NCBI RefSeq assembly: GCF_013364215.1
Contig: NZ_CP054923.1
Location: 7,068,001-7,132,000, forward strand
Direction: 5' to 3'
Length of the DNA: 64,000 nucleotides
Origin: Verrucosispora sp. NA02020
Lineage (GTDB): Bacteria; Actinomycetota; Actinomycetes; Mycobacteriales; Micromonosporaceae
A program made the translations under genes and the position numbers. Under the pieces are notes generated by a model. It did no database searches. It saw nothing but the letters and a program-made list of their open reading frames with translations, and was not told the DNA's origin. Shown piece by piece: positions 5,966 through 21,161 of the stretch. The number at the start of each line of letters is the position of its first letter. Position 1 is the stretch's first letter.

Positions 5966-6730
5966 GTGAACGCCGTGAGAACAGGGACTGATGTCGGCAT
6001 GGTCGGGATGGTGCTGGCGGCCGGGGCCGGGCGCCGCCTGCGCCCGTACACGGACACGCTGCCCAAGGCGCTGGTCCCGGTGGACGGCGAGATCACCATC
6101 CTCGACATCGCGCTGCGCAACCTCGCCGAGGTGGGGCTGACCGACGTCGTCGTGGTGGTCGGCTACGCGGCGGACACCGTCCGCGAACGCCAGGCCGACC
6201 TGGAACGCCGCCACGGAGTGACGCTCACCCTCGTGCACAACGACAAGGCCGAGGAGTGGAACAACGCGTACTCGCTCTGGCTGGCCCGCGACTGGTTCGC
6301 CCGGGGCGTACTGCTGGTCAACGGCGACACCGTGCACCCGGTGAGCATCGAGAAGACGCTGCTGGCCGAGCGTGGGCCCGGCGTGCTGCTCGCGGTCGAC
6401 ACCCTCAAGCCGCTGGCGGAGGAGGAGATGAAGACCACCTTCGACGCCGCCGGCCAGCTCACCCGGATCACCAAGCTGATGGACCCGGCCGACGCGTACG
6501 GCGAGTACATCGGCGCGACGCTGATCGAGCCGCAGGTGGCCGGAGCGCTCGCCGACGCGCTGGAGGCGACCTGGCGACGCGACCCGAACCTGTACTACGA
6601 GGACGGATACCAGGAGTTCGCCGAGCGGGGTGGCGAGGTACGCGCCGCACCGATCGGTGACGTGTCCTGGGTGGAGGTCGACAACCACGACGACCTGGCC
6701 CGGGCGCGGGAGATCGCGTGCCGTTACTAG
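5966..6730 (+). CDS. Nucleotidyltransferase (phosphocholine/inositol-phosphate cytidylyltransferase-like)
   Basis: NTP transferase of 254 aa of the LicC/IPCT type, which activates a phosphorylated alcohol as its nucleotide (usually CDP) derivative. The signature VLAAGAGRRLRPYT is at ~16-29, followed by LPKALVPV (substrate lysine), NNAYSLW and the metal-binding NGDTVHP region. VSWVEVDNHDDLARA at the C-terminus is typical of this group. The start GTG 5966 has TATCCT 6 nt upstream (5954-5959). It begins a three-gene set; its stop overlaps the next start by 13 nt. The product is probably the CDP donor used by the phosphatidyltransferase two genes on (inference). Confidence 0.82.
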   Translation: MNAVRTGTDVGMVGMVLAAGAGRRLRPYTDTLPKALVPVDGEITILDIALRNLAEVGLTDVVVVVGYAADTVRERQADLERRHGVTLTLVHNDKAEEWNNAYSLWLARDWFARGVLLVNGDTVHPVSIEKTLLAERGPGVLLAVDTLKPLAEEEMKTTFDAAGQLTRITKLMDPADAYGEYIGATLIEPQVAGALADALEATWRRDPNLYYEDGYQEFAERGGEVRAAPIGDVSWVEVDNHDDLARAREIACRY

Positions 6731-7785
6731 CGCGCACCGTCACCACACCGCTGTCGATCGAGGTCCGCCGAGGGGCGGTGGCCAACCTCGGCGTGCTGCT
6801 GGCCGACCGGCGGATCTCCGGTGGTGGCGACGTCGCGGTGGTGGTCGGCCCCGGACAGGGCGAGAAGATCGCCGACCTGTGCCGGCCCTCACTCGGCTCG
6901 GCCGACATCTTCACGGTGACCGGCGGCACCGTCGACTCCGCGCAGGAGCTTGGCGACCAGCTCCGGCGCCGGCACTACGACGCGGTCGTCGGCATCGGCG
7001 GCGGCAAGACCATCGACACCGCCAAGTACGCCGCCACCCGTTACGCCATTCCGATGGTCACCGTGGCGACGAGCCTCGCCAACGACGGCATCGCCTCCCC
7101 GGTGGCGTCGCTGACCCACGAGGGCGGCAAGGGCTCGTACGGCGTGCACATCCCGATCGCCGTCCTGGTCGACCTCGACTTCGTGGAGAACGGGCCGGAC
7201 CGGCAGACCCAGGCCGGCATCGGCGACGCGGTGAGCAACCTGAGCGCCTGCGCCGACTGGGAACTGGCCCACCGGGTACGCGACGAGCCGATCGACGGGC
7301 TCGCCGTGACGCTCGCCCGGACCGGTGCCGAAGCCCTGGTCAACCATCCCGGCAAGATCACCGACGACGCCTTCCTGACCACGCTGGCCGAGGCACTCAT
7401 CCTCGGCGGGATCTCCATGTCGATCTGCGGCTCCAGCCGCCCGGCGAGCGGTGGCGACCACGAGATCTCGCACGCCATCGACCACCTCTACCCGGGCACC
7501 GGCTCGCACGGCGAACAGGTCGGCCTGGGCGCGTTGTTCTGCACCTTCCTCCGGGGCGACCTGGAACGCTTCGGTCAGCTCAGCACCTGCCTGCACCGGC
7601 ACGGCCTGGCCGTCCGGCCCGACGAGCTGGGCCTCACCGACGAGCAGTTCGTCGAGGCGGTCGCCTTCGCGCCGCGTACCCGACCGGACCGCTACACCAT
7701 CCTCGAACACCTCGCGTTGTCCGCTGACGACATCCGGACCCGGCTGGGAGACTACGTTGACGCCCTCCGTGAGCACCTTGGCTGA
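6718..7785 (+). CDS. sn-Glycerol-1-phosphate dehydrogenase-like (AraM/EgsA family) enzyme
   Basis: NAD(P)-dependent polyol-phosphate dehydrogenase of 355 aa in the iron-containing ADH superfamily, closest in motif pattern to glycerol-1-phosphate dehydrogenase. Seen: dinucleotide loop GIGGGKTID (92-100), ATSLANDGIASPVASL (117-132; G1PDHs have a similar AS-DG-ASP run), and metal ligands D170, H248 and H264 in GDAVSNL, GGDHEISH and GSHGEQVG. GTG 6718 has GGGAG upstream. Codon 3 is a rare TTA. In archaea this family makes the G1P backbone of membrane lipids; some bacteria use AraM. The substrate here is not proven. Confidence 0.75.
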   Translation: MPLLARTVTTPLSIEVRRGAVANLGVLLADRRISGGGDVAVVVGPGQGEKIADLCRPSLGSADIFTVTGGTVDSAQELGDQLRRRHYDAVVGIGGGKTIDTAKYAATRYAIPMVTVATSLANDGIASPVASLTHEGGKGSYGVHIPIAVLVDLDFVENGPDRQTQAGIGDAVSNLSACADWELAHRVRDEPIDGLAVTLARTGAEALVNHPGKITDDAFLTTLAEALILGGISMSICGSSRPASGGDHEISHAIDHLYPGTGSHGEQVGLGALFCTFLRGDLERFGQLSTCLHRHGLAVRPDELGLTDEQFVEAVAFAPRTRPDRYTILEHLALSADDIRTRLGDYVDALREHLG

Positions 7786-8482
7786 GCCTTCGCACCCCAC
7801 GGTCGCCGACTTCCACCGGGTGAACCGGGGTGGCGGTCTGTTCAGCGAGTCCGTGAGCCAGTGGATCGGCGCCGTCTTCGCGCTGGTCGCCCAGCGGCTC
7901 GGACTCCGCCCCACCGCGCTGACCATCACCAACCTGGTACTCGGTCTGGCCACCTCGGTCACCGTGGTCGCGCTCGCCGGTCCGGTCGCCGCCGGTGACG
8001 TACCCGCCTGGGTGGTCGGGTTGCTCGCGCTGCTCGGCTGGCAGATCGCGTACGCCCTGGACTGCGCCGACGGACAGCTCGCCCGGGTGACCGGTCAGGG
8101 CAGCGCGGCCGGGGCCCGGGTCGACGTGCTCTGCGACGTGGCGGCCCAGATCGCCCTGGTCGCCGCGCTCTCCGCGACCGCCGTGGCGCAGGTGCCGTCG
8201 ACGCCCGTGTGGTTGGTGGCGGCCTTCGCGGGCACCTGGATGGTCAACCTGGTGACCTCGGTGATGCAGTCCGGCCCGAACGCCGCCAGCATGGTCACCT
8301 CCACCAGCCTGCCGGTCCGCCTGGTGAAGCTGGTCCGCGACTACGGCGCAGTGATCTTCGTAGCCGCCCTGGTGCTGGCCTTCGCTCCGGCGCTCGTCTT
8401 CTGGGTCGTGGTCGCCTTCACCGTGGTGAACGGCGGCTTCCTGCTCGCCAGCATCGCCTTCTCCGCCCGCGCCTCCCTCTAA
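7757..8482 (+). CDS. CDP-alcohol phosphatidyltransferase family membrane enzyme
   Basis: Integral membrane enzyme of about 241 aa that transfers a phospho-alcohol from a CDP donor to an acceptor alcohol. The full signature D-x2-DG-x2-AR-x8-G-x3-D-x3-D is intact at D102, D105, G106, A109, R110, G119, D123 and D127. About five or six hydrophobic helices follow the pattern of the family. TTG 7757 is proposed since GGGAG lies 6 nt before it; GTG 7769 is the alternative. It overlaps the G1PDH-like gene by 29 nt. It is the likely last step of this gene set, producing a lipid or soluble phosphodiester. Confidence 0.85.
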   Translation: MTPSVSTLAEPSHPTVADFHRVNRGGGLFSESVSQWIGAVFALVAQRLGLRPTALTITNLVLGLATSVTVVALAGPVAAGDVPAWVVGLLALLGWQIAYALDCADGQLARVTGQGSAAGARVDVLCDVAAQIALVAALSATAVAQVPSTPVWLVAAFAGTWMVNLVTSVMQSGPNAASMVTSTSLPVRLVKLVRDYGAVIFVAALVLAFAPALVFWVVVAFTVVNGGFLLASIAFSARASL

Positions 8483-9007: not shown

Positions 9008-10375
9008 TCAGCGGAGGGACGCGTACACGTCGATGAGACGCTTGGTGACCACCTCGGGGTGGAAGGTGCGGTCGTAGCGGGCGCGGGCGGGCCCGGCCAG
9101 GGCGGCGGCTCCGGCGGCGGCCACCGGCAGTGCGGCTGCCAGCGCCGCCGGGTCCGGCGGCACGACCCATCCGGCCTCTCCGGCCCGGATCCCGGCCGGC
9201 AAGGCGCTCGCCCGACCGGCGGAGTCGACCTGACCGACGGATCCACCAGGCCCGACCGGGTCAACGGAACCCACGCCACCGGAGCTGACCGGGTCAGCAA
9301 GACCCACCGGGCCAGCGGGGCCGCCGGGGCTGGGCGGGGCGGCTGCCGAGGCGGCCACGGCAGGGCCGGTGCCGGCAGGTTCGCGGGGGGTGTCGGCGCC
9401 GACGAGGTACGGGATGCCGCCGAGCGCGGTGCCGAGCACCGGCCGCCCGCTGGCCAGCGCCTCGATGATCACGGTGGGGAGTACGTCGTGCCAGGTGGAG
9501 GTGGCGAGCACGACGGCGCTGGCGTTCAGCGCCTCGCGTACCCCGGCCCGGTCGAGCGGGCCGAGGAAGGTGACGTCGGCGCGTTCGGCCGCCGCCGCCT
9601 CGACCAGCGGACGCAGTTCGCCGTCACCGGCCACGCGCAGTGGGCCCAGTGCGCCGTCCGGGTGCCGGCGCCACGCCTCCAGCAGCAGGTCGAGCCCCTT
9701 CTCGGGGGAGAGCCGACCGAGGAAGAGGAAGCCCCGGCCCAGCGGCGCGGGGGTGCCCGGGTCCGGGATGGCGTTCGGCTTGACCACGATCCGCTCGTCC
9801 GGGATGCCGTAGTCACGCAGGTGGTCGGCGACCGCGCTGGTCAGCGCGATGAACCGGTCCACCGACTTCCAGGTGCCCCGGTGCACGGCCAGGGTGGTCG
9901 CCATCAGCGCGCTCTGTGCCCGCGACCCCCGGTAGCAGCGGTGTACCACCGCCGGTACGCCCAGCGTCCGGCCCCGGCAGTCCTGGCAGATCACCCCGTC
10001 GCGGAAGTACAGGCCGGAGGAGCAGACCTGGCGGTAGTTGTGCACCGTCTGCACCACCGGCACCCCGTGCCGGTGCGCGGTCCGCACCACCCAGGGCGAG
10101 AGCAGCGGGTACGGGTTGTGCAGGTGCAACACGTCCGGACGGTGCTCGGTGAGCAGCCGACTCAGCTCCTGTTGCGCCCGGGGGGCGTAGATCGGCGAGA
10201 TCGGCAGCAGTGCCTTCGCCGTCTTCGGCATCGACGGGATCTCGTCGGAGCTGCGCAGGAACGGCAGCACCTCCACGCCGGCTGCGGCGAGCTGGGAGAT
10301 CTCCACGTCGACGATGGTGTTCTCGCCGGACGGCTGGGCTTCCCGGTACCGGTTGTGCGCCACCACGATTCTCAC
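9008..10375 (-). CDS. Glycosyltransferase family 4 with low-complexity insertion
   Basis: GT-B fold glycosyltransferase of 455 aa. The N-terminal domain begins MRIVVAHNRY and contains HLHNPYPLLSP; the C-terminal donor domain has FLGRLSPEKGLDLLLEAW and the EX7E-type region VIIEALASGRPVLGTALGG. Between IPYLVG (~residue 335) and GWVVPP (~407) sits a ~70-residue Gly/Pro/Ser/Val-rich insert, unusual for the family. GTG 10375 has TAGCCT 8 nt upstream on the minus strand, whose hexamer overlaps that of the divergent Fpg gene. It may glycosylate the product of the preceding convergent cluster, but the acceptor is unknown. Confidence 0.85.
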   Translation of the reverse strand: MRIVVAHNRYREAQPSGENTIVDVEISQLAAAGVEVLPFLRSSDEIPSMPKTAKALLPISPIYAPRAQQELSRLLTEHRPDVLHLHNPYPLLSPWVVRTAHRHGVPVVQTVHNYRQVCSSGLYFRDGVICQDCRGRTLGVPAVVHRCYRGSRAQSALMATTLAVHRGTWKSVDRFIALTSAVADHLRDYGIPDERIVVKPNAIPDPGTPAPLGRGFLFLGRLSPEKGLDLLLEAWRRHPDGALGPLRVAGDGELRPLVEAAAAERADVTFLGPLDRAGVREALNASAVVLATSTWHDVLPTVIIEALASGRPVLGTALGGIPYLVGADTPREPAGTGPAVAASAAAPPSPGGPAGPVGLADPVSSGGVGSVDPVGPGGSVGQVDSAGRASALPAGIRAGEAGWVVPPDPAALAAALPVAAAGAAALAGPARARYDRTFHPEVVTKRLIDVYASLR

Positions 10376-19670: not shown

Positions 19671-21161
19671 AATGCCGCTCAGTTAGGGCGGTGTGGTGGA
19701 TGTCAAGCGGGGTGTAGACGTGGACGGCGGGGTCTCGGTATAGAGGTTTGTCACTCCAAGACAGCCTCTGGACCGGGAGCCCCGCCGTTGGAACAGTCTG
19801 CCATCACGTCCACGATCAGGGTGGCTGCGGGGCGGTTCGCGCCGGGCCATCTGGGTGAGTTGACGCAGCAGGTGCCGTTCGAGATGGTCGATGCCGTTCT
19901 GGCTGAGGCCGGTGGTGTGCAGTCGCGGGTGCGGGATCTGCCGTCGCGGGTGGTGGTGTATCTGCTGCTCGCGGCGGGGCTGTTCGCTGAGGTCGGTTAC
20001 CGGCAGGTGTGGGCTCGGTTGGTCGCTGGGCTGGACGGGTTGACGGTGGCGCTGCCGACGTCTTCGGCGTTGTCGCAGGCTCGCCGTCGGGTCGGGGACA
20101 AGCCGCTGGTGGCGTTGTTCCGGTTGCTGTCGGGTCCGCCGGCGGGGGCCGCCCGGTGGCGGGGTCTGCTGGTGTGCGCGATCGACGGCACCAGCATGTT
20201 CGTGCCCGATACGGCGGCTAACCTGACGGTCTATCCGCGTCAGGCGGGCAGCCACGGTGGGTCGGGGTATCCGATGCTGCGGCTGGTCGCCGTCGTGGCG
20301 TGCGGCACCCGCGCTGTCATCGACGCGGTGTTCACCCCCATCAGCACTGGCGAACTCACGTGTGCGGGGCGTCTGTTGGGCTGCCTGCGCCCAGGCATGC
20401 TGCTGCTGGCCGACCGTGGGTTCGCCGCCCGTCAGATGATCGAACAGTTCGCCAGCACCGGCGCTGACCTGCTCATCCGCGACAAGGACGACCGGCGGCT
20501 GCCCGTCATCCGCCGCCATCGCGACGGGTCCTGGCTGTCTGTCATCGGCACGATGACGGTCCGGGTCGTTGACGCCGAGATCGTCGTGAGCATGAACGGT
20601 AAACGCCACGTCGGCCGGTACCGGCTGATCACCACCCTCACCGACCAGCGCCGCTTCCCGGCCATGGACCTGGTCACCCTCTACCACCACCGCTGGGAGA
20701 TCGAGACGACATATCTGGAGTTGAAGTCCACCCTGCGGGGCGGACGGGTCCTACGAGCCCGAACCCCGAACGGGATCAGTCAAGAGGTCCACGCCCTGCT
20801 CACCACCTACCAAGCGGTCCGGCTGGCAATGGCTGACGCCACCGCCAGCCGGCCCACGACCAACCCCGACCGGGCCAGCTTCACCATCGCCGTCCACGCC
20901 GCCCGAGACCAGATCACCCAAGCCGCTGGTGTCATCGCCGGCACCGTCATCGACCTCGTCGGCACCATCGGCCGCGCAATCCTGGCCGACCTGCTACCCC
21001 CACGCCGCACCCGAATCAGCCCCCGCGTGGTCAAACGCGCGATCTCCAAACACCGCGCCAAAGGCACCATCGACCGCACCAACTACCACGCCACCATCAA
21101 CATCAACATCCTCGAAACAGCAGCATTGACAACCCGCCCACCGCCCTAACTGAGCGGCATT
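19671..21161 (+). mobile_element. IS4-family insertion sequence, copy 1
   Basis: Element of about 1.49 kb bounded by 23-bp perfect terminal inverted repeats (AATGCCGCTCAGTTAGGGCG... and its complement). It holds one transposase. It is followed after GC by a second copy in the same orientation. An 11-bp direct repeat CTGCTAACGTC (19660-19670 and 22656-22666) flanks the pair as a whole, not each copy. Confidence 0.95.
19788..21149 (+). CDS. IS4-family transposase (copy 1)
   Basis: DDE transposase of 453 aa. Residues ~20-110 match the IS4 N-terminal domain (VDAVLAEAG...RVVVYLLLAAGLFAEVGYRQVWARL). The catalytic acids are D133 in AIDGTSMF, D209 in LLADRGF and E306 within the IS4 signature Y-x2-R-x3-E-x6-K (Y299, R302, E306, K313). 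The start is TTG 19788 with GGGAG upstream. The reading frame is intact, so the element may be active. The protein is identical to that of copy 2. Confidence 0.95.
   Translation: MEQSAITSTIRVAAGRFAPGHLGELTQQVPFEMVDAVLAEAGGVQSRVRDLPSRVVVYLLLAAGLFAEVGYRQVWARLVAGLDGLTVALPTSSALSQARRRVGDKPLVALFRLLSGPPAGAARWRGLLVCAIDGTSMFVPDTAANLTVYPRQAGSHGGSGYPMLRLVAVVACGTRAVIDAVFTPISTGELTCAGRLLGCLRPGMLLLADRGFAARQMIEQFASTGADLLIRDKDDRRLPVIRRHRDGSWLSVIGTMTVRVVDAEIVVSMNGKRHVGRYRLITTLTDQRRFPAMDLVTLYHHRWEIETTYLELKSTLRGGRVLRARTPNGISQEVHALLTTYQAVRLAMADATASRPTTNPDRASFTIAVHAARDQITQAAGVIAGTVIDLVGTIGRAILADLLPPRRTRISPRVVKRAISKHRAKGTIDRTNYHATININILETAALTTRPPP

Follow-up and report, generated by a model that had tools for sequence, protein, structure and literature searches.

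What does a relative of archaeal glycerol-1-phosphate dehydrogenase (G1PDH) do in a soil actinobacterium, between the genes for a nucleotidyltransferase and a CDP-alcohol phosphatidyltransferase? The question is raised by three overlapping genes at positions 5966-8482 of a 64,000-nucleotide stretch (the window) of the 7.28 Mb genome of Verrucosispora sp. NA02020, contig NZ_CP054923.1, positions 7,068,001 to 7,132,000 of the forward strand. The answer that we favour, giving it about an even chance, is that the operon would take the place of TagD and supply CDP-glycerol of sn-1 configuration, from which the cell would build a glycerophospholipid or a polymer of glycerol phosphate for its envelope. 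The basis of this proposal is formed by protein family membership, conserved gene order, co-occurrence with TagF-like enzymes and the lack of a TagD above the cut-off. The dehydrogenase would quite probably reduce dihydroxyacetone phosphate to sn-glycerol-1-phosphate. The nucleotidyltransferase would then, with somewhat less assurance, react this with CTP to CDP-glycerol bonded via the sn-1 phosphate. Finally, at slightly under an even chance, a lipid or an alcohol in the membrane might receive the sn-1-glycerophosphoryl group from the CDP-alcohol phosphatidyltransferase, and the donor may be shared by TagF-like enzymes for a glycerol-phosphate polymer exported by a TagGH-like ABC transporter. 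The first two enzymes would work like TarJ/TarI, a reductase-cytidylyltransferase module that supplies CDP-ribitol for teichoic acid by ketose phosphate reduction and CTP activation, but they are of different enzyme families. The genes are:

5999-6730, plus strand: COG1213-like (LicC/IPCT-type) nucleotidyltransferase, matching Pfam NTP_transferase, in a reading frame open from 5966
6718-7785, plus strand: G1PDH/AraM-type dehydrogenase, assigned by its match to NCBI model NF002022, tree, AlphaFold2 fold and metal ligands
7769-8482, plus strand: CDP-alcohol phosphatidyltransferase, matching PF01066 with the full motif

The frames are open across 5966-8482 and neighbours overlap head to tail: the stop of the first gene at 6730 overlaps the GTG start of the second at 6718, and the stop of the second at 7785 overlaps the GTG start of the third at 7769, for which TTG at 7757 is an alternative. 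The more likely start of the first gene is ATG at 5999 rather than GTG at 5966, since most of its homologues begin M-x-G-x-V-L-A-A-G. All three proteins exceed their Pfam cut-offs (NTP_transferase 46.9 bits, cut-off 21.2; Fe-ADH_2 108.7, cut-off 28; CDP-OH_P_transf 34.6, cut-off 22), which bears out the three overlapping genes of these families named in the original prediction, a reading of the window made without database searches.

Chance can be ruled out for the trio, since the dehydrogenase occurs in 37/37 genomes of the genus and the nucleotidyltransferase adjoins it in 67 of the 68 family genomes that have it. The dehydrogenases of the 36 other genus members are 69-95% identical to that of the host; one copy (G014; G and L numbers are our handles for genomes and loci) is interrupted by an in-frame TGA. 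Among the 120 best-listed relatives, the nearest named ones are from Verrucosispora and Micromonospora. The gene was found in 68/101 family genomes (E <= 1e-30) and 43/396 phylum genomes, and there was no close match in 24 genomes of other families of the order within a 61-genome sample (best E 1.3e-9). Of the first 48 loci, a count that leaves out the DHQ-synthase-like L002, 44 had a nucleotidyltransferase match, those without being L026, L032, L036 and L041, the last at a contig end; the gene caller was a GC-frame heuristic by which some genes were missed or miscut, such as the L079 dehydrogenase. The survey of cluster conservation suggested with the original prediction also found a gene with the canonical CDP-alcohol phosphatidyltransferase motif next in 54/68 family genomes. 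In 13 of the remaining 14, the dehydrogenase match is followed after 33-845 bases, in the same orientation, by an ABC-2 permease that shares 47-59% identity with that of the host; the last, G474, has neither the nucleotidyltransferase nor a downstream output neighbour. Nucleotidyltransferase and dehydrogenase are thus the constant core, and the output gene is variable. In distant actinobacterial relatives with Glu before the metal-binding His (L063, L066, L087, L088, L089), the pair is accompanied by genes for DUF4012, type I phosphodiesterase and sugar-transferase-like proteins.

A further version of the gene set occurs in genus g27, which was taken as Streptomyces because the L050 dehydrogenase is 90-99% identical to Streptomyces loci. 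Its order is DUF5941-CDP-alcohol phosphatidyltransferase fusion, nucleotidyltransferase, dehydrogenase, small CDP-alcohol phosphatidyltransferase, GT2, ABC-2 permease, ABC ATPase and genes that we take to be of hopanoid type. The best 80 of 551 loci (79 from Streptomyces, one from Kitasatospora) included 68 of sufficient length for a judgement; the first five genes are together in 68/68 and the permease in 67/68, the fusion having been sought via its CDP-alcohol phosphatidyltransferase domain only. DUF5941 was confirmed with Pfam in L050 and the host and seen in none of 14 control genomes. Fusions lie at L114:11103-13091 and L050:5951-7810; the fusion stands inside the Streptomyces-type cluster but apart from the trio in the host. 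The short gene after the dehydrogenase fails the strict motif in all 12 compared loci that have it in this order (L050, L052-L059, L061, L085, L086; the rows printed were picked for failing it), with Ala or His for the fourth Asp. A cluster of this type, from the DUF5941-type gene through GT2, was also seen in NZ_LT559118.1, an 11.85 Mb Nonomuraea record filed as a plasmid. According to a passage in a survey of 929 Streptomyces genomes (PMC13118837), an araM/tagG/tagH/crtB block is teichoic-acid-associated, from synteny. This is the same gene set; TagD is unmentioned in that passage, the link to Micromonosporaceae is drawn in the present analysis, and our label TagGH for the exporter genes follows this source, by resemblance.

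The identity of the dehydrogenase is central to the proposal. Its best NCBI model is NF002022, NAD(P)-dependent glycerol-1-phosphate dehydrogenase (254.3 bits). In a 59-row tree, 54 rows on the G1PDH side (archaeal G1PDHs, AraM, 3ce9 and the host) separate from five GldA/Fe-ADH rows with support of 100/100, and the 31 actinobacterial rows form a single clade (100/99); the root is by midpoint and several branches are long. The phylogeny thus groups the enzyme with G1PDH and AraM and apart from the glycerol-dehydrogenase type, where the original prediction would have failed had it belonged there. In an earlier tree, the only one to include B. subtilis AraM, two DHQ-synthase-like rows were placed among the actinobacterial ones with a branch length of 5.3; in the 59-row tree these were left out and glycerol dehydrogenases put in as outgroups, taken from a search of plasmids for homologues, in which 40 of 128 records were listed and most of the 40 were glycerol dehydrogenases. 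Also left out were three PDB pieces (including B. subtilis AraM), AraM_Rubrobacter and six near-duplicate or redundant rows, and act_L077_7, miscalled short, is in neither tree. The AlphaFold2 model (pLDDT 91.9) matches 3ce9 first, then the M. jannaschii G1PDH 4rgq with NADPH and dihydroxyacetone phosphate, then another archaeal G1PDH. D170, H248 and H264, which we take to be the metal ligands, do not vary across the 27 rows of an alignment that includes archaeal G1PDHs, to which the host enzyme is 29-34% identical, so that the claim of intact ligands holds. A motif S-R-P-x-S-G, perhaps with a role in binding, is retained by most rows, with Leu for Arg in G455, G496, G516 and G533. The dehydrogenase is therefore G1PDH-like by descent, and we infer G1PDH activity.

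For the nucleotidyltransferase, the best profile matches in the PDB were LicC (98 bits), 6pd1 (79 bits), which we take to be PntC, and T. maritima IPCT 4jd0 (73 bits). R13, K23 and D110 align, with alignments matched by hand, with an Arg, a Lys and an Asp that a passage of PMC12275187 names as active-site residues in T. maritima IPCT; fold family and these residues are common to the host enzyme and CpgD, LicC and IPCT. The same source describes CpgD (COG1213) as producing CDP-glycerate, by which C3 phosphate activation is possible in COG1213 enzymes.

The motif DxxDGxxARx8GxxxDxxxD of the CDP-alcohol phosphatidyltransferase is complete (D102..D105-G106..A109-R110-x8-G119...D123...D127) and invariant in 26 rows, which are 85-94% identical and little informative beyond the genus. 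Its only PDB sequence matches are CEPT1/CHPT1 (best E 1.7e-7), enzymes that react a CDP-alcohol with diacylglycerol. The structure model is of low confidence (pLDDT 67), its nearest structures being IPCT-DIPPS, AF2299 and PIP synthases, all at E > 0.001, and because of this the acceptor cannot be read from it. The nearest of these, A. fulgidus IPCT-DIPPS 4mnd (E 0.003, a weak match to a poor model), suggests that the trio might make a compatible solute in the form of a small soluble phosphodiester (glycero-phospho-inositol or diglycerol phosphate, for example), like the di-myo-inositol phosphate of archaeal IPCT-DIPPS. This is rather improbable. The T. maritima IPCT match and the pairing of a cytidylyltransferase with a CDP-alcohol phosphatidyltransferase fit it, and both host proteins match the IPCT/DIPPS model NF041135, but at 49.3 and 27.5 bits they stay far under its cut-off of 580. 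The domains that are fused in 4mnd are separate genes in the host, whose operon adds the G1PDH-like gene, and the exporter and GT2 genes that accompany the pair in other lineages would be needless for a cytosolic solute.

An envelope destination for the CDP-glycerol is suggested by genes elsewhere in the genome. A locus unlinked to the trio, at about 661.5-667.3 kb of the main contig, holds an ABC-2 permease, an ABC ATPase, the CDP-alcohol phosphatidyltransferase fused to DUF5941, and a GT2-Glyphos_transf fusion (Glyphos_transf 405 bits; a second, weaker match of 120 bits lies elsewhere). The host thus has TagF-like and TagGH-like genes, as in the TagD-TagF pathway of wall teichoic acid, yet TagD above the TIGR01518 cut-off was found in 0/101 family genomes, the best host match being 41 bits over positions 1-92. 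Glyphos_transf (E <= 1e-10) is present in 54/101 family genomes, in two of them weakly (G465, G470). Dehydrogenase and Glyphos_transf occur together in 47, the dehydrogenase only in 21, Glyphos_transf only in seven and neither in 26 (p = 6e-6); this and the phylum table take the repeated 101- and 396-genome samples to be identical, which the handles suggest and the unlisted rows leave unproven, and this lowers their weight. Among the 396 phylum genomes, Glyphos_transf was found in 16/21 with a core dehydrogenase (at least 50% identical) against 17/375 without, and by genus (a hand count) in 5/8 with a core dehydrogenase, g119 weakly, against 13/228 others. The 33 phylum genomes with Glyphos_transf have the dehydrogenase in 18 cases, TagD in six, both in none and neither in nine, with TagD counted at 97 bits or more, a threshold set after the scores had been seen, which makes the exclusion less telling. 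In G179 and G443 dehydrogenase and Glyphos_transf lie within 1 and 5 kb. According to the part of PMC7086022 that treats B. subtilis, wall teichoic acid is made from sn-3 and lipoteichoic acid from sn-1 glycerol phosphate. The product of the proposed route would therefore have lipoteichoic stereochemistry, yet a soluble CDP donor.

Several observations weigh against such a supply route. The host has no linkage between trio and TagF-like locus, weak TagD matches reach 81 bits in family genomes, and TIGR01518 is matched weakly, at 63-66 bits, in four of the 18 phylum genomes with dehydrogenase and Glyphos_transf (G165, G186, G229, G409). Kinship inflates the co-occurrence, 11 of these 18 belonging to g27, and in the distant dehydrogenase clade (36-42% identical) there is no association, with Glyphos_transf in 2/22. 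The dehydrogenase misses the equivalog cut-off of NF002022 (254.3 against 413 bits). Its best match both in fold and in PDB sequence, 3ce9, was deposited as a glycerol dehydrogenase, although 3ce9 itself sits on the G1PDH side of the 59-row tree, and B. subtilis AraM (9h4x) is only the 17th fold match, directly after one glycerol dehydrogenase. The residue before the second metal ligand H248 is Asp247 in the host; in the 68 family genomes it is Cys in 60 and Asp in one, with the motif unread in seven, and the matching position is Glu in all eight named archaeal rows, in Priestia and B. subtilis AraM and in the distant actinobacterial clade. CpgD, a COG1213 enzyme tested for C3 phosphate activation, rejected glycerol-1-phosphate according to the relevant passage of PMC12275187, and for the host enzyme this substrate is our proposal. 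Finally, no Glyphos_transf match was found in 21 of the 68 dehydrogenase-bearing family genomes, and seven further family genomes have Glyphos_transf and no dehydrogenase.

Because of these 21 genomes, a Glyphos_transf polymerase cannot always be the user, and a lipid made by the CDP-alcohol phosphatidyltransferase is a live rival. In its simplest form, diacylglycerol would be the acceptor of the sn-1 glycerophosphoryl group, so that this enzyme would make ordinary phosphatidylglycerol from CDP-glycerol and no polymer would be involved. Since the head groups of phosphatidylglycerol are sn-1, as stated in a passage of PMC7086022, CDP-glycerol from glycerol-1-phosphate would yield the natural isomer. 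The CEPT1/CHPT1 matches agree with this, as does the full trio without a Glyphos_transf match in five g261 genomes (G457, G497, G517, G534, G548). We consider it unlikely, since the eight CDP-alcohol phosphatidyltransferase matches in the host genome probably include the standard route to this lipid, and the exporter and GT2 genes of other versions would be left unexplained.

The change beside the metal ligand also bears on the original prediction of reduction, activation with CTP and transfer: the order fits the three families, whereas activity and archaeal stereochemistry stay conditional, as Asp247 in place of Glu differs from verified G1PDHs. The dehydrogenase may have shifted to another ketose or aldehyde phosphate, with the operon activating a different polyol phosphate, for which Glu to Asp or Cys in the actinobacterial clade speaks. 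PF04464 enzymes, moreover, also handle ribitol phosphate. Such a shift seems improbable with S-R-P-x-S-G kept in most rows and the clade remaining on the G1PDH side of the tree.

Variation within the genus was also counted in favour of a shift. There are two forms of the dehydrogenase, 69-74% (27 genomes) and 85-100% (10 genomes, host included) identical to that of the host, while both flanking genes are 80-95% identical in the 12 other genus loci compared (exchange loci: host 6718-7785, L003-L014, L120-L122, L173). With 32 taxa, the flanking genes support monophyly of the genus (100/100), which is rejected by the dehydrogenase with a log-likelihood lower by 145.7 and a p-AU of 0.0009. Between the forms (10 against seven rows), 26 sites show fixed differences; three of these, D247/C, S251/M and Q267/L, are near metal ligands in sequence. 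Most simply, this would mean that the operon stayed as it was while its middle gene was replaced.

In the literature covered, the tested use of bacterial glycerol-1-phosphate is the ether lipid of B. subtilis; bacterial G1PDH homologues, including actinobacterial ones, already figure in phylogenies (PMC6431249, PMC5059525). The host dehydrogenase shares fold, metal ligands, S-R-P-x-S-G and tree side with archaeal EgsA and B. subtilis AraM (4rgq, 9h4x); unlike these it has Asp or Cys for Glu and a nucleotidyltransferase partner. Its likeness to AraM might point to an archaeal-type prenylglyceryl ether lipid here too. PcrB is the enzyme that uses glycerol-1-phosphate in B. subtilis, and no PcrB/GGGPS match was found in the host genome. 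One of 101 family genomes, G516, narrowly exceeds the PcrB cut-off (24.1 against 23.9 bits), the matches in five family genomes with any are short and weak (35-46 residues, 20.7-23.3 bits), and the operon is without a prenyltransferase. Ether lipid synthesis is accordingly disfavoured as very improbable.

In the open-licence literature covered (subscription papers being outside the scope), we found no tested use of G1PDH homologues for actinobacteria, in the parts of the sources consulted, and no functional test of this gene set. The original prediction did not include the unlinked TagF-like and exporter locus, the lack of TagD, the lack of any convincing PcrB or the occurrence in Streptomyces. 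Rather tentatively, and with less than an even chance, Streptomyces and Micromonosporaceae may have a standing TagD-independent sn-1 CDP-glycerol pathway to an envelope polymer or lipid, whose glycerol would be the mirror image of that in wall teichoic acid. If this is true, a large group of bacteria would use archaeal-type glycerol phosphate as a matter of course, and for something other than membrane ether lipids. A large actinobacterial G1PDH-like clade is now tied to a nucleotidyltransferase, envelope transferases and exporters, and direct tests become possible both of the role of bacterial glycerol-1-phosphate and of the stereochemistry that glycerol teichoic acids have in actinomycetes.

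Of the neighbouring genes in the window, a GT4 at 9008-10375 had been proposed as adding a sugar. It was rejected as a partner of the trio: the gene is on the opposite strand, members of its family were seen in only 9/41 loci, L071 of the same genus has other genes there, and Streptomyces has GT2 instead. Upstream, the 255-amino-acid product of 5158-5925 matches nothing in Pfam or NCBIfam; members of its family are found upstream of the trio in 8/41 loci, as are, likewise in 8/41, relatives of the adjoining NUDIX protein. A 453-amino-acid reading frame at 19788-21149 is transposase-like, as judged by eye only.

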